Assembly (NCBI GenBank): GCA_012735535.1
Contig: JAAYHC010000015.1
Coordinates: 1-53,068 of the forward strand
Direction: 5' to 3'
From: Bacillota bacterium
Lineage (GTDB): Bacteria > Bacillota > UBA5301
DNA length: 53,068 nucleotides
The notes under the pieces were generated by a model that did no database searches, was not told where the DNA came from, and worked only from the letters and a program-made list of their open reading frames with translations. Both the position numbers and the translations under genes were made by a program. The first letter of the stretch is position 1, and every line of letters starts with the position of its first letter. Positions 1,703-39,733 of the stretch are shown piece after piece.

Positions 1703-4681
1703 TTATTTCACCCCCCTAATGTTGACAAGGAAGGCCTTGTATTCTGGGATCATGGTGTTTCCATCTCCGATATGCGGCGTCAAGTTATTGGCGGTCGCAC
1801 CTGTGGCGATACCCTGGAAACCGTAGTGCCACGGTAAGCCGACATGGTGGACTTTCTTGCCGTTAACTACCATCGCTTGCATCCGCTTGGTGACCAAAGC
1901 GTAACACTCGATCTCGCCGCGCGCTGAGGAGACAACTACCTTTTGTCCGTTCTCGATTCCCAGTTCAGCTGCCAGATCCTCGCCGATTTCGGCGAACATG
2001 TACGGCATGACCTCGGCCAACCATGGGAGGTTACGGGTCATCGCACCGGCCTGCCAGTGCTCGGATACACGGTAGGTCGTGCAGACATATGGGAATCTGC
2101 TGACATCACCCTTATCATTCATCGGGGTATCCCAGAGCTTAACCACCGGGTTGAGGTTAACACTCGAGAGGATGTTGCCGGTCGGCGTCTCCCACGGCTC
2201 GTAGTGCTCAGGCAATGGACCTTCGTTACAAGCCGAGTACAGACATCCAACCCCTTCCGGCCTCATGATGTAGGCATTCTGGCCACCAGCCGAGAACGGT
2301 GAGGTCGTCACACCAAAGTCAGGCACGTCATACCCGACCCAGCTGCCCTGGGCCTCATCCCACCAGATGTTCGCCTTATCCTCCGCCCACGGCTGTCCAT
2401 ACGGATCGGCCGAGCAGCGGTTGTAGATGATCCGGCGGTTAAGCGGCCAAGCAAAGGACCACTGGAGGTAGTTGCCTACGCCGCCCGGGTCAACGGTGTT
2501 GCGCCGCTTGAGCATATTGCCTTCCTCGGTGTACTGGCCGCAGTAGATCCACACACCGCAAACGGTAGTACCATCATCTTTAAGCAGACCGAACGAAGAA
2601 AGCTGCTTACCGGTGGTCAGATCATAGCCATTGATCTCTTTGGCCACTTTGTCGATATCCGGATGGCTGCCTGTGCCATAATCCCACCACATCTTGAGGA
2701 CCGGCTCATCCTTCGGATCGGTACTGCCTTTGTATTTCTCCACAATTTTGTTGCGCAATTGATGGATGATCTCGAGGTCAGCTCTAGAATCGCCCTTCGG
2801 CGCGATGGCCTGCCAGCGCCACTGCGCCCAGCGGCCGGAGTTGGAAATTGAGCCTTCTTTCTCAAATGAACCGCACGCCGGTAGGAAGAAGACCTCGGTC
2901 TTGATATTCGCCGGGTTCACTCCCGGACGTTTCCAGAAAGCAGCTGACTCGTGCTCCCACAAATCAACGACAACCAGCCAATCCAGGTTCTCCATGGCCT
3001 TGGCTTCTTTGCCGGAGTTCGGACCACCGACAACCGGGTTCTGACCCCACAGGAACAAGCCCTTGATTACACCCTCATACATTGCTTCGAACAAAGCGAT
3101 GTGCTCGTAGTTCCGATTCGGATCCCTCTTAGGCAGCCACTGATAGCCGAACTCGTTCTCCGGAGTTGCATTCGGACCATAGAAGGCCTTGAGCATACTG
3201 ACCATGAACTTCGGCTTGTTAACCCAGTATCCTGATTTCGGGGTCTCGGTCCGGTGGTAATCAGCCAAGGTGGCATAGGCCGGAGTAGCGACCGCAGAGT
3301 TCAAATAGCCCGGATACAGATGCTGCAACAGACCCATGTCCGTTGAACCCTGCACGTTGGACTCGCCGCGAAGTGCGTTAACGCCACCGCCCGGCAGACC
3401 GGTGTTGCCTAACAGCAACTGCAAGATGGCATAGCTGCGAACATTCTGCGTACCAACGGTGTGCTGGGTGGTACCCATCGCATACAGGATCGTACCCGTT
3501 TTATCCGGTGCACCGGTCGCACAATAGGCCTCGGCTACCTTGAGGTAAAGATCTTTCGGCGTACCGGTGATCTTGCACACGGTATCTACATCATAGCGGT
3601 CATAATGCCGTTTCATGATCTGGAAGACGCAGTTCGGATCCTGCAAGGTCATATCCCGCTTGTAGTTGCCGTTTTCATCAGTTTGGTAGGCCCAAGTGGT
3701 GCGGTCATACTTCCGGGTCTTCGGGTCATAGCCGGTAAACATGCCATCGCTAAACCCATACTCCGGATGAACCAGGAAAGAAGCGTTGGTGTAGTTCACC
3801 AGGTAATCATACTGATACAGCTTGTTGTCGATCGCATACTTGATCAAACCACCGATAAAGGCGATATCGGTACCGCTGCGCATCGGAGCGTAAATGTCCG
3901 ACAACACTGAGGTCCGGGTATAACGGGGGTCGACGTGGATAATCTTGGCTCCCCTCTTCTCCCGCGCCTCGGTTAACCACTTGAAGGACATCGGATGGTT
4001 CTCAGCAGCATTCGAACCGATGATCAAGGCACAATCGGTGTTTTTAAAGTCAATATAGTGATTGGTCATTGCTCCTCTACCATACGTGGGCGCCAGACCG
4101 GCGACCGTAGAGGAGTGTCATATCCGAGCTTGGTGTTCTAAGTAGACAACACCAAGCATCCGCGCAAACTTGTGCAATAAATAGCCCTCTTCGTTGTCAA
4201 GGGCAGCTCCGCCCATGTTCGCAATCGCATGACAACGGTTAACGGTAATTCCATTCTGCTCTCTCTCGAAATACCGGTCACGCGTCTCTTTAACTTTTTC
4301 AGCAATCCGATTGAGCATCCAATCCCAATCTTTTTCTTCCCACCTATCACTACCGGCAGCACGGTACATCGGCTTGGTAAACCGTTTTGGACTCTCATAT
4401 ACCTGCCGAACGGCTGCCCCCTTGCTACATACCGCTCCCTGGTTGATCGGATGATCCGGATCACCCTCGGAGCCAATAAGCTGACCGCCCTTGGTGTAGA
4501 TTAAAATACCACAACCACAGGAGCAGTACGGGCAAATAGTCGGGGTGGCCTGGCAGGATGCTGTCTTTAATTCGGGAACCTTGGCCTCTATGGCATCAAG
4601 GTTGAATCCCAACTCCCGTACAAAGAGAGATCCTGCGGTCATCCCAGAGATTTTAAGAAAATCCCTTCGACTAACGCGCAT
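1703..4681 (-). CDS. fdnG: Formate dehydrogenase alpha subunit, selenoprotein (Sec188)
   Basis: This is the catalytic molybdopterin subunit of a formate dehydrogenase-N type enzyme, about 992 residues with an internal UGA read as selenocysteine. The first 187 codons (4681-4121) carry a twin-arginine signal (SRRDFLK, residues 4-10) and the N-terminal [4Fe-4S] cysteines C50, C53, C57 and C85. The UGA at 4120-4118 follows ...QARI and continues in frame as Sec-HSSTVAGLAPTYGRGAM into the long downstream frame. E. coli FdnG has its Sec in an equivalent place (residue 196). A SECIS hairpin follows the UGA. A GGAG lies 7 bases before the ATG, with AAAGGAG further upstream. Automated tools would split this gene in two. 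Confidence 0.95.
4072..4115 (-). promoter_or_regulatory. Bacterial SECIS element of fdnG
   Basis: Starting two bases after the UGA, CTCCTCTAC (4115-4107) pairs perfectly with GTAGAGGAG (4080-4072). An inner GCC/GGC stem presents the pentaloop GGUCU (4099-4095). The same GGUCU apical loop is the SelB-binding feature known from E. coli fdhF. This directly supports selenocysteine insertion rather than termination, and implies that selA, selB, selC and selD lie elsewhere in the genome. Confidence 0.9.
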
Positions 4682-35305: not shown

Positions 35306-35320
35306 TTGGACGAGCTAAAG

Positions 35321-35352
35321 ACGGGTGTTTTTGACACCCGTTATTTTTTTTT
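35321..35352 (+). terminator. Intrinsic terminator of ilvE
   Basis: ACGGGTGT pairs with ACACCCGT around a TTTTG loop (35321-35341), followed by an 11-base stretch with nine consecutive Ts. This is a textbook intrinsic terminator. Confidence 0.93.
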
Positions 35353-35474
35353 GCACTTTACTTGGAAATAAAAGGAAATTCCAGGCCTGCGATGAATTTT
35401 AGCTTGGATACGGTGCTTTTCTTGTTGCCAGCCGCGTAAAAATGGGTGAGACGTATTGTGCGGAGGGATTCTGC

Positions 35475-36428
35475 ATGGCAACAATTAAGGCAGCCGTAGT
35501 CCAACTGTCCATCTCCGATCTCAGCCGGTACTCTTGGTCAGAGCTGGAAAAGAAGCTGATTTTCCTCTTTTCCCAGGGGATAGAGTCCGGGGCAGATCTC
35601 ATCGTCTTTCCGGCCTTGACTGCGCTCTTGTTTTCTCCGGAGTCTCGCAAGACGATCGAATACGGGATCGATGCCAAAACGAACCAGTTGGTTGCCAGGC
35701 TCGGTCGTTTTTGGACCGGGGAATGGTTGGACTTCTTCACTTCATTGGCCAAAAACCACCATGTTCAGGTGGTCCCGGGGACAACTTTGGAGGCTTCCGA
35801 CCGCGGACTGTTGCACCGGGGCTACTTGGTGGACAGAGATGGGCAGGTGGTCTTAACCCAAGAGCAGATCCATTTTTCCCCGCTTGATCAAGAACATGCC
35901 TTTCAACCCGGGGAACAAATCACGACGGCCCAAACCGATCAGGCTACCATTGGCTTAGTGCTGGGCTGGGATGCGTGGATACCGGAGATGGGCCGGGTTT
36001 TGGCCCTGCAAGGAGCCGATCTCATCATCAGCCTGCAAGCTGTCGGTAAGTTTTATGATTACCGTAAACAGTTGCTGGGAGTCTGGCAGATTGCTCAGGC
36101 CAATGGCGTATTTACCCTGGAGAGCTGCTTAGTTGGTCGGGCCGTAAAATTTGCTTACCAAGGATTGACCACCATTTGTGGTCCGGCTGCGCTCTATCCG
36201 CCGACCGGCATTCTGGCCCATATTGATCCACAGTTAACCAACCTTACCAGCTTGGATCTTGGTTACTTGATCTCACCCCAAAAGGAAAAAGAAGGGGTCT
36301 TGATCCGCAACCTCGATTTGGCGGCGGCTAAAGCTTTTCGTGATACCGCGGGACTTTTAAAGCTCTCCAAAGCTCACTGGGGCAATACCGGAGGTGATTT
36401 CGGTGATATCGCCGAGAAAGCTCATTGA
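35475..36428 (+). CDS. Nitrilase-fold protein without catalytic residues (first of tandem pair)
   Basis: This 317-residue protein has the overall nitrilase/carbon-nitrogen hydrolase fold pattern: ADLIVFPALTALL (40-52), a GYLVDRDG strand, HAFQPGE, and IGLVLGWDAWIPEMGRVLAL (159-178). The catalytic triad Glu-Lys-Cys appears replaced: Ala47 for Glu, Gln131 for Lys and Gly164 for Cys. It is therefore predicted to be a pseudoenzyme, perhaps a ligand-binding or scaffold protein. ATG 35475 follows GGAGGG. It overlaps the second copy by 26 bases and is followed by a secreted barrel-like protein. Confidence 0.78.
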   Translation: MATIKAAVVQLSISDLSRYSWSELEKKLIFLFSQGIESGADLIVFPALTALLFSPESRKTIEYGIDAKTNQLVARLGRFWTGEWLDFFTSLAKNHHVQVVPGTTLEASDRGLLHRGYLVDRDGQVVLTQEQIHFSPLDQEHAFQPGEQITTAQTDQATIGLVLGWDAWIPEMGRVLALQGADLIISLQAVGKFYDYRKQLLGVWQIAQANGVFTLESCLVGRAVKFAYQGLTTICGPAALYPPTGILAHIDPQLTNLTSLDLGYLISPQKEKEGVLIRNLDLAAAKAFRDTAGLLKLSKAHWGNTGGDFGDIAEKAH

Positions 36429-37365
36429 CAAAGTCAATTGGGAACCGGTGCGGGAGTTATACTACGAGGTGGAAACTTTCTTTCTTTTTCATCCCGAGCG
36501 GATCAAAAGTCTGATCGAATCATACGGCGCCAAGCCGAAAGAGCCGTGTGCTCCGCAACCCGGCCGGCTAGCCTTGGTGAAGAGAACGCAGTTGGCGGCG
36601 GAGTCGCTAACCGATTTGGTTGTCAAAACGAGCGAGCTGTTGGTGAAGGCGTGTGAGGTTGGGGCGGGCGTAGTGATTTTGACCACAGGGGCGAACGAGG
36701 TCTTGCTACAGTTGGCGCCGCTGGCGACAAGACGTGTTACCCGCCTGATCATGGATTCTTTTGAAGCTTTTTGGGGCAGTTTGGCCCGCAAATACCAATT
36801 GTGGATCATCGTCGGAACCAGAACCCTGCAAAGCCGCGCCCATAAACGTGAGCTATGTTATTGTTTTGATCCCGCTGGGAAATGCAGCTATCAGTTCAAG
36901 ACTCATCTCTCGGCCGGGGAGGTCCAAGACGGTTATCTGCCGGGAAGACAAGTGAAGGTCTTTAATACCGGCGCGGGCCCGCTCGCGCTGGCCTTTGCCG
37001 GGGAGGAGCAATTCTTTGAATTGGCCCGGATTCAGGCGGCTCGGGGCGCGAAAATTGTCGTGCGCCTGGGCGAGTGGCCGCAAGAACTAGAGATCACCAC
37101 TTTATCTGGGGAGTGGGGGCGGGCCCAGGAAAACAATTTCTATTACATTTCCGGTAAACGTATTTACTCGCCAACCTATTTGAGCATCGACGGGAGCGGT
37201 GTATTTGTCGTCGCCGAAACCGATGATCTTCCCTTTATCCAGATCGATGTGAATTTGGCCCGGCTGGCGCAGTGCGGGGAGGATCCTGGGGCGGTACCGG
37301 CCGTCAACCGGGAAATTATGACCGGCTACTTACCAAACTTGTACCGCCAATTATGGAATTTGTAA
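36403..37365 (+). CDS. Degenerate nitrilase-fold protein (second of tandem pair)
   Basis: This protein of about 320 residues is a divergent nitrilase-fold relative. The lysine region survives (FKTHLSAGE) and GAKIVVRL matches the strand after the active-site helix, but the expected cysteine is alanine (LAFAGEEQFFELARI) and the first glutamate block reads VVILTTGANEVL. GTG 36403 is chosen because GGAGGTG lies exactly six bases before it; a GTG at 36394 is inside that site. The gene overlaps the first copy and precedes the barrel-like gene by ten bases, so the three form one transcription unit. The function is unknown. Confidence 0.68.
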   Translation: MISPRKLIDKVNWEPVRELYYEVETFFLFHPERIKSLIESYGAKPKEPCAPQPGRLALVKRTQLAAESLTDLVVKTSELLVKACEVGAGVVILTTGANEVLLQLAPLATRRVTRLIMDSFEAFWGSLARKYQLWIIVGTRTLQSRAHKRELCYCFDPAGKCSYQFKTHLSAGEVQDGYLPGRQVKVFNTGAGPLALAFAGEEQFFELARIQAARGAKIVVRLGEWPQELEITTLSGEWGRAQENNFYYISGKRIYSPTYLSIDGSGVFVVAETDDLPFIQIDVNLARLAQCGEDPGAVPAVNREIMTGYLPNLYRQLWNL

Positions 37366-37375
37366 AGGAGTGATG

Positions 37376-38695
37376 ATGGTGCCAAGGTTTTTTGTGTCTC
37401 CAGTGTGGACAAGCCTGCTGATCCTAATCCTTTGTCAGGTGAGCGGTCTTGCTGCAGAACCTAAGCTCACCATTGAACATATCGCCGGTCAAGGCGATGA
37501 TTCGTACTCGGAGCTAAGCTTGCAGAGCGACTGGCGCCGGCCGAATGGCTGGCAAATCTCGGTGGATCCGTCAGTACGGGTTTACGGCTTGGCCGAGGTG
37601 GCCAAATTGCGGCTGGCCAATGAGCTCAAGATTGACCAGGCGATCGGTTGGGACAAGTTTAATTTCAACTACACCCGGTACGACCGGCCGGAAGATGTGG
37701 CCAATCAGTATAATCTGGGTTACGAGCACAAACGCAAAGTGCAGGCGTGGTGGAATCCTGGCGAGCAAGGCTCATGGGTCGCCAGGCTCAAAGGTGAGTA
37801 CAAAACTTATCCGGAGAAGCCGCACCGGGACTATGTTGCCGGGGAATGGGAACTGTATTCCGAATCCAAAGAACCGGTCAATCGACCGAATTGGGCCGAC
37901 CATCTCTGGTCTACGGGGATCTTCGATTTCACGGTGAATCGAGCATTAGACGGGCAAGACTGGTTTTTGGACGGCTGGGTTCTAGGTGAGGTTTTGCTCA
38001 ATAGCGGCGAAGACTACCGGTACCCGTGGGCCGAATCTGAGGATATTATCTCCACCAAATTAATCTCCCGGATTGGCGGCGGTTGGTCTAACCACTATCG
38101 TAATGCCCAATATACCTGGCGGGTCAAAAACTACGAAGTTCAGTGGCAGCAGCAGCTCAGCCCGACCAACAGCCTTAAGTTCGGTTATCGGACTATCGAT
38201 AAGACTTACCCGGCTAAACTGACCAAAAGCTATCATACCCGCGAACATCTCCTGCGGTGGCTGGGCAATGGAGATAAAGCCACAGTCGAGGCCGGGTTTA
38301 CATACGATTCTAAGCGTTATTTGGCCGGGAAGGTCGTTGAGGAATACCAGGTGTGGGCGACGCGTACCGGGCGCGGAACTTGGCCGAACTCGCTGAAATT
38401 GCAGGGTCGGCTCCAAACGGAACCAGCGTGCAAACCGGATGCTTCAATCGCAACCACTTTCGCAATCGAACTGCCAAAAAGCCGGAACTGGGCGGCTAAG
38501 CTCTCCGTGAAAGCTGAGCACAAGTGGGAGGAGCTTGTTTCTCACAAGACGACTGCTACTGCTAGCGTGTCAATTATCCGGCACTTGCGGAAGCAGACCG
38601 ATCTCAGTCTGGCTTTTGAACGAAAACGAGTCTGGGAAAGGCAAGCGGTCAGCGACGATTGGGGGGCCAAGATCGGACTGAAACTGGCACTGTAG
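37376..38695 (+). CDS. Secreted beta-strand-rich protein, outer-membrane-barrel-like
   Basis: I do not recognise a named family. This 439-residue protein has a clear signal peptide (basic start, hydrophobic WTSLLILILCQVSGLAA, cleavage near residue 26). The mature part is almost entirely alternating polar/hydrophobic strands rich in Trp and Tyr with short charged turns, for example FNFNYTRYD, SLKFGYRTIDKTYP and ATVEAGFTYDSKRY, ending AKIGLKLAL. That pattern resembles outer-membrane beta-barrels of diderm bacteria, although there is no terminal aromatic residue. A secreted all-beta surface protein is the alternative. AAAGGAG lies five bases before ATG 37376. Confidence 0.7.
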   Translation: MVPRFFVSPVWTSLLILILCQVSGLAAEPKLTIEHIAGQGDDSYSELSLQSDWRRPNGWQISVDPSVRVYGLAEVAKLRLANELKIDQAIGWDKFNFNYTRYDRPEDVANQYNLGYEHKRKVQAWWNPGEQGSWVARLKGEYKTYPEKPHRDYVAGEWELYSESKEPVNRPNWADHLWSTGIFDFTVNRALDGQDWFLDGWVLGEVLLNSGEDYRYPWAESEDIISTKLISRIGGGWSNHYRNAQYTWRVKNYEVQWQQQLSPTNSLKFGYRTIDKTYPAKLTKSYHTREHLLRWLGNGDKATVEAGFTYDSKRYLAGKVVEEYQVWATRTGRGTWPNSLKLQGRLQTEPACKPDASIATTFAIELPKSRNWAAKLSVKAEHKWEELVSHKTTATASVSIIRHLRKQTDLSLAFERKRVWERQAVSDDWGAKIGLKLAL

Positions 38696-38758
38696 TATGG
38701 CCACCGGTTTTCCGGGGTATACCAATGCTGGATCTCGGAAAACATGGGAGGTATTAAG

Positions 38759-39733
38759 TTGCAAGTCTTTCTTGGTGTTGATGTTGGATCGGTAAGCACG
38801 AATTTTGCCCTGGTCACGGCCGAAGGTAAACTGGTCGAGTCATTATATATCCGAACCAAGGGCAATCCTATCCAAGCCGTTAAAGATGGATTGGCGCGGA
38901 TCCGGGATCTGATTCCGCCGAGTGTCAAGGTTGTCGGGGTGGGGGCTACGGGGAGCGCCCGTCACTTGACCGGGGTGCTCATCGGTGCCGATGCGGTCAA
39001 GAATGAAATTACCGCCCATGCGGTAGGTGCTTTGCAGTTTAATCCGGAGGTACGAACCGTTTTGGAGATCGGCGGTCAGGACTCAAAGATCATTATTATC
39101 CGCAACGGAATAGTTGTTGATTTTGCCATGAATACGGTTTGTGCTGCAGGGACCGGCTCATTTTTGGATCACCAAGCAGAGCGGTTGAACATTCCCATTG
39201 AGCGCTTTGGCGACCTCGCCCTACAGTCCACCACCCCGGTACGCATCGCCGGCCGGTGCGGGGTTTTTGCCGAGTCGGACATGATCCACAAGCAACAAAC
39301 AGGTCACCGTATCGAGGATATCATTGCCGGGCTTTGTCAGGCTTTGGTGCGCAACTATCTTAGTAATGTGGCCAAAGGCAAAGAGATTGCTCCGCCGATC
39401 GTCTTTCAAGGGGGCGTTGCGGCGAACAAAGGAATTAAAGCCGCCTTTGAAGCGGCTTTGGGTCAGCCGGTACACGTATCACCTTATTACGGGGTTACGG
39501 GCGCAATTGGCGCCGCTTTACTCGGTAAAGCTGCGGCTGAACAGAGCGGCCGGACCAATTTTAAAGGATTTGAGGCCGCTGAACTCAACTACCATGCGCA
39601 AAGTTTTGAATGTGGCGGCTGTCCAAATCGGTGTGAAGTCGTCCAGATCTGCGTAGACGAGACGGTCCTAGCCCGCTGGGGTGACCGCTGCGGCAAGTGG
39701 GCAGAGGGGGTTGGTGCGGGGACGGTTGCCTAA
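38759..39733 (+). CDS. BadF/BcrA-type acyl-CoA dehydratase activase, standalone
   Basis: This ASKHA-fold ATPase of about 324 residues is related to HgdC/BadF, which drives an electron into 2-hydroxyacyl-CoA dehydratases or benzoyl-CoA reductases through an inter-subunit [4Fe-4S] cluster. It has FLGVDVGSVSTNFALV, EIGGQDSKII, NTVCAAGTGSFLDHQ and GRCGVFAESDMIH with the bridging cysteines. The C-terminal FECGGCPNRCEVVQI resembles the linker before DUF2229 in the long fused activases, but the frame stops there. TTG 38759 behind GGGAGGT is the probable start; ATG 38744 is the alternative. No dehydratase gene is nearby. Confidence 0.87.
   Translation: MQVFLGVDVGSVSTNFALVTAEGKLVESLYIRTKGNPIQAVKDGLARIRDLIPPSVKVVGVGATGSARHLTGVLIGADAVKNEITAHAVGALQFNPEVRTVLEIGGQDSKIIIIRNGIVVDFAMNTVCAAGTGSFLDHQAERLNIPIERFGDLALQSTTPVRIAGRCGVFAESDMIHKQQTGHRIEDIIAGLCQALVRNYLSNVAKGKEIAPPIVFQGGVAANKGIKAAFEAALGQPVHVSPYYGVTGAIGAALLGKAAAEQSGRTNFKGFEAAELNYHAQSFECGGCPNRCEVVQICVDETVLARWGDRCGKWAEGVGAGTVA

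Follow-up and report, generated by a model that had tools for sequence, protein, structure and literature searches.

Two neighboring genes in a Bacillota genome encode proteins that belong to the nitrilase fold but differ from the enzymes of that superfamily in missing the Glu-Lys-Cys catalytic triad, and a gene for a secreted protein follows them directly. This raises the question of what such a set of genes does, and whether it is a system in its own right or part of something more widespread. The window, by which we mean the whole 53,068-nucleotide stretch of DNA analysed, is the entire contig C60 of a 1.94 Mb genome (G000) that is 98% complete. It is compared below with G001 and G002, representing two other genera of the same family, and with G003 and G006, from other families of the same class.

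Organization of the locus

All three genes are on the forward (+) strand and each has its own ribosome binding site. The first, N1 (35475–36428), codes for a 317-residue pseudo-nitrilase lacking a signal peptide and is preceded by the sequence GGAGGG at 35462–35467. Because a terminator-like stem-loop and T run on the + strand (35320–35342) closes the transcript of the upstream aminotransferase gene, N1 probably starts a transcript. The second gene, N2′ (the window's version of N2; 36394–37365), codes for a protein of nitrilase fold whose N-terminus carries a conserved extension; its listed start is the GTG at 36394, and the GGAGGT at 36390–36395 favors the GTG at 36403 as the likely real start, so that the N1 and N2′ reading frames overlap by 26–35 bases depending on the choice. 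The third gene (37370–38695) encodes a secreted, beta-strand-rich, barrel-like protein of 441 residues. Its listed start is at 37370, the AGGAG at 37366–37370 favors ATG 37376 as the likely true start, and the gap to N2′ is 4–10 bases according to the start chosen. A BadF/BcrA-type ATPase gene (38744–39733, + strand) lies 48 bases 3′ of the third gene, occupies the same position in G001, G002 and G003, and is possibly on the same transcript as the trio. Elsewhere in the window, a formate dehydrogenase gene (1703–4681, minus strand) is split by an in-frame TGA, EHQARI-TGA-HSSTVAGLAPTYGRGAMTNHYIDF; this is probably the usual selenocysteine site, and the product a selenoprotein rather than that of a broken gene.

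Catalytic residues of N1 and N2′

Both proteins score above the curated cut-off (23.2 bits) of the Pfam CN_hydrolase family PF00795, N1 with 63.2 bits (3e-17) and N2′ with 29.2 bits (7.5e-7), the latter also matching the N2 profile with 308 bits. An earlier note on this DNA, made from the sequence alone, was right to place two overlapping nitrilase-fold genes at these coordinates. Fold family, motif positions and best sequence matches are shared with members of the superfamily such as the N-carbamoylputrescine amidase 5h8i and the archaeal nitrilase (6ypa and 1j31).

The catalytic columns were placed by profile alignment and by alignment to solved nitrilases. In N1 they contain Ala47 (codon 35613–35615, + strand) at the Glu position, Gln131 (35865–35867, +) at the Lys position and Gly164 (35964–35966, +) at the Cys position, the same three replacements that had been proposed. 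In N2′ the Glu position is Thr98 (36685–36687, +) and the Cys position is Ala202, which is followed by a GEEQFFE motif (36997–37020 for the two together, +) where CMDATYFE would stand; the earlier note's Cys to Ala change is thus borne out and a loss of Glu accompanies it, but its claim that the triad is replaced does not extend to the Lys, which is kept as Lys169 (36898–36900, +). The columns therefore read A/Q/G in N1 and T/K/A in N2′, neither being the Glu-Lys-Cys of an active enzyme, and alignment of both proteins found no intact triad elsewhere in either; it was the presence of such a triad that had been named as able to overturn the proposal. From its residues, N1 is predicted to be unable to use the known nitrilase mechanism. 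It carries a QxQxH signature (Q129, Q131 and H133) and Asp166, and N2′ retains the N-terminal extension of about 45 residues that is conserved in N2 proteins. No export signal was found in N1 or N2′, neither N1 nor N2 reaches an equivalog cut-off in NCBIfam, and PADLOC gave no match for either.

A widespread pair of N1 and N2 genes

A search with an N1 profile across 399 genomes sampled from the phylum finds N1-N2 pairs in 69, from which 70 pairs were read for their triad residues. Several patterns emerge. First, the order N1-N2 is fixed in all 70, five of which are natural fusions in one open frame. Secondly, the full triad is present in no N1; the Glu survives in 5 of 64, the Cys in 9 of 69, and the Lys position is Gln in 67 of the 68 that are readable. 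The N1 triad thus appears, from these residues, to have been lost by differing routes with the Lys to Gln change as the constant. The N1 proteins with Cys kept and both Glu and Lys replaced (AQC) are those of L048, L049, L073, L075, L078 and L082–L085, and those with Glu kept (EQG) are in L079, L081, L086, L090 and L092. Thirdly, the N2 proteins outside the window's family have EKC in 65 of 67; one other is half readable owing to masked bases, and one, in G132 (L102:5576-6634), has EKG for EKC with an altered nucleophile loop, GLPLGADALDWEY. The latter is apparently a second, independent loss of the N2 cysteine.

In a quick tree built without row L001, the N1 proteins form one clade with support of 99, the window's N1 lies within it with the N1 of G003 as its nearest relative outside its own family, and N2 has support of only 73. 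Taken by residues, N1 alone would be a pseudoenzyme across the whole pair family, with the loss of the N2 triad belonging to the window's family. The window's pair shares with the canonical one its gene order, the QxQxH and Asp166 of N1 and the N-terminal extension of N2, but differs in that N2′ has no triad, no GH125-like or MFS gene lies beside the pair, and a secreted-protein gene follows it.

Genes accompanying the pair

A GH125-like gene is located within 7 kb of at least 40 of the 70 pairs, and MFS sugar-type transporter genes are near at least 25, these counts being lower bounds as several contigs are short. We refer to the former as GH125-like since the match to PF06824 is weak yet above threshold; the proteins are about 600–700 residues long, with no signal peptide seen. 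The association is also apparent genome-wide, with the pair present in 38 of 45 genomes with a GH125-like enzyme versus 31 of the 354 that lack one (Fisher p 5e-27, uncorrected for kinship). In about nine loci a PIG-L deacetylase-type gene, identified by Pfam in one of them, follows N2; in L059, L077, L079, L081, L086, L090 and L092–L094 the order is N2, a PIG-L (GlcNAc-type) deacetylase-like gene, then the GH125-like gene, which may hint at what the canonical pair acts on. This company, together with the genome-wide association, suggests that the pathway deals with sugar conjugates and includes an amide step; the substrate is our reading of the gene neighborhoods. Neither G000 nor G001 has a GH125-like gene, at the locus or elsewhere in the genome, and neither has an intact N2; G002 contains both, in a separate canonical locus.

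Loss of the N2 triad in the window's family

The trio of N1, N2′ and the third gene occurs together in three genera of the window's family, with identities of 39–63%; the lack of co-occurrence that the earlier note had set as a refutation is thus not seen. The N2′ triad columns of the three are TKA (the window), PKC (G001, which keeps Cys and Lys) and PQP, such that none has the catalytic Glu, two retain Lys and one retains Cys. Outside this family N2 is the more strongly conserved member in 1926 of 1953 comparisons; within it the order is inverted, with N1 proteins 57–62% identical and N2′ proteins 39–41%. Of the family-conserved positions, N1 keeps 17 of 20 and N2′ 21 of 55. Where MDAT followed the Cys, GEEQ is invariant in the three N2′ proteins, within the full motif GEEQ(F/Y)FE.

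The window and G003 have a common gene order, consisting of LarC, DUF1256, transporter and VanW-like genes followed by N1, N2, a secreted-protein gene and BadF. The G003 pair lies in an arrangement of MFS, N1, N2 and secreted protein with N2 intact, and G006 has the same arrangement, again with an intact N2. Because G003 has the same neighborhood with an intact N2, the window's pair is most simply viewed as an in-place descendant of an intact pair. The proposal of an undescribed three-gene system is therefore to be modified: the trio is conserved as supposed, but it is not a self-contained novelty, being one branch, catalytically dead, of an N1-N2 pair that is widespread.

Simple decay could be supposed, with N2′ relaxing after loss of its pathway and N1 and N2′ persisting in an operon useful for the secreted protein; the absence of the GH125-like partner from G000 and G001 and the faster evolution of N2′ than N1 agree with this, but the frames are open in three genera, N1 retains both its identity of 57–62% and its conserved positions, and N2′ has gained a new conserved motif rather than suffering random loss. 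We regard decay as improbable. The pattern, drawn from only three genomes, seems to fit loss of the old reaction combined with a new constraint better, and it is likely, judging by the residues, that the original hydrolysis has been lost in the window's family. Some residual N2′ chemistry may persist, given the Cys and Lys in G001 and the Lys in the window. A variant is that catalysis has been changed rather than lost, the glutamates of GEEQ(F/Y)FE, with Lys169 where it is kept, forming a new active site or metal binder. The invariance of GEEQ at about 40% identity, and the retention of Lys in two N2′ proteins and Cys in one, speak for it; variation in the triad residues among the three would be unusual for an active enzyme, and with the catalytic Glu gone from each we consider this variant unlikely as well. 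Loss of catalysis with the fold kept is the reading we prefer, and to that extent the earlier suggestion of a repurposed fold agrees with it, without the surface partner that was attached to it.

The secreted, barrel-like protein

The third protein has no family match in Pfam. Its N-terminus, read by eye, is signal-peptide-like, and strand-like hydrophobic alternation is above that of shuffled sequences (z 3.6) on a home-made score run with control proteins; the alternating-strand, signal-peptide protein described earlier is therefore upheld, as is its distance of within ten bases. The same score is 3.7 and 4.3 in the two family relatives, no more than 1.2 in the controls, and 3.0–4.6 across the window's protein, these relatives and the counterparts in G003 and G006. 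Among 61 genomes searched, relatives of the third protein were detected only within the family, in G002 (41%) and G001 (39%). AlphaFold, working from two usable sequences, gives a model with many hairpins at a pLDDT of 31 (the N2′ model, likewise from two usable sequences, has 34), scores too low for either model to be used. Because the class is diderm by Omp85, the machinery for inserting such proteins, which is present in seven of seven genomes (9.4e-45 in G000), an outer-membrane barrel is possible. The C-termini in the window's family (KLAL, KVEI and IRTL) lack the terminal aromatic residue usual in such barrels, and the counterparts in G003 and G006 end in Phe. The protein thus appears barrel-like, with an outer-membrane location putative.

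In G003 and G006 a secreted, strand-alternating protein is encoded directly after the intact N2, although hhalign found no homology between these and the window's third protein. A barrel-like third gene recurs in the class, and it is tied to N1-N2′ by position and probably by co-transcription; co-expression is as far as we would take the relationship. The trio could instead form one uptake or surface unit, with the third protein an outer-membrane channel or receptor whose cargo N1-N2′ sense or hold inside the cell, which would be the earlier note's idea taken to its furthest. A third gene adjoins the pair in three of the class's families, also where N2 is intact; this, the diderm envelope, and the MFS transporter gene before N1 in G003 and G006 fit such a unit. 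However, N1-N2′ and the third protein are in different compartments, the third proteins of different families share no sequence, and the gene is absent from pairs elsewhere in the phylum, which makes the unit doubtful. Nor is the surface partner of the earlier note supported: the third protein has an export signal and N1 and N2′ do not, and the genes that usually neighbor the pair in other genomes code for a GH125-like glycosidase and for transporters.

In G002 and G001, multihaem CXXCH cytochrome genes and a gene for a barrel-like protein of 630–650 residues lie directly before the trio (L042:858-7162 in G002, with an NHL propeller in addition, and L041:10426-15056 in G001), resembling an outer-membrane electron conduit of diderm Bacillota. 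That the third protein belongs to a cytochrome conduit was considered and rejected, as G000 does not have the cluster's barrel-like protein and the link is not constant.

A proposed heteromer with dead subunits

We propose that N1 and N2 assemble, as its two subunits, into a heteromeric complex of nitrilase fold. In the majority of Bacillota with the pair, N2 would be the catalytic amidase, and the dead N1 would complete or regulate assembly, its altered pocket perhaps binding a ligand. The probable substrate is an amide-bearing sugar conjugate, which the neighboring MFS transporter would import and the GH125-like glycosidase would trim. The window's family would have kept the pair in place while the N2 triad and the GH125-like enzyme were lost and the GEEQ(F/Y)FE loop was gained; there the complex most likely no longer cleaves the old substrate but serves for binding or regulation, its genes being expressed together with that of a protein resembling an outer-membrane barrel.

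The heteromer is the most likely arrangement because of the analogies with the AdoMetDC-prozyme system and plant nitrilases and the assembly requirement of nitrilases, and we consider it fairly probable. The explanation as a whole, with dead N1 and active N2 as the norm and repurposing for binding or regulation in the window's family, we favor by a little. Homology, residue changes, co-occurrence, synteny and the inversion of conservation are its observed basis, to which we add by inference the heteromer, the substrate class, the present role and the location of the barrel.

Relationship to known systems

In Trypanosoma brucei a dead paralogue, the prozyme, activates live AdoMetDC (PMC5201418), and by analogy the canonical N1-N2 pair probably works in a like manner; the AdoMetDC-prozyme fold is unrelated to that of nitrilases, however, and the window's pair has no live member. 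Sorghum NIT4A and NIT4B2 are two nitrilase paralogues in one heteromeric complex (Jenrich et al. 2007, as cited in the parts of PMC5154151 that we draw on); these are plant enzymes, and those parts describe no consistently dead subunit, whereas the bacterial heteromer is extrapolated. The nitrilase domain of DRT1 provides an example of a nitrilase fold regulated by assembly, which nitrilases need for activity (PMC13275509), but unlike N1 and N2 it is part of a reverse-transcriptase protein and is a catalytic effector. A defence system was rejected for the window's genes, given the PADLOC result and the different architecture of DRT1, the known defence nitrilase. Among non-subscription papers, searches on pseudo-nitrilases, tandem nitrilases and nitrilases with GH125 turned up no description of the pair. 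What appears to be new is the paired arrangement, together with the branch in which both members are dead; the nitrilase fold itself is already well known.

It is routine to annotate a protein of nitrilase fold as a hydrolase on the strength of homology, and the N1 clade contradicts this by its residues; this dead clade adjoins a capable partner in about a sixth of the genomes sampled from the phylum, and the gene company points to an uncharacterised sugar-amide pathway. Generic nitrilases, dead-plus-active pairs and doubly dead pairs constitute a natural series in which to study the control that a dead subunit has over a live one; the last lets one ask what remains after both subunits die. 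We tentatively speculate, with some reserve, that nitrilase pairs of one dead and one active member, working in the manner of a prozyme, are widespread among Bacillota, and that a single diderm family has made of its pair a heteromer without any catalysis, which has a new conserved loop and is linked through its operon to an outer-membrane protein. If true, what was an amidase fold would now serve for binding or signalling, and the stages in between could still be seen in relatives.
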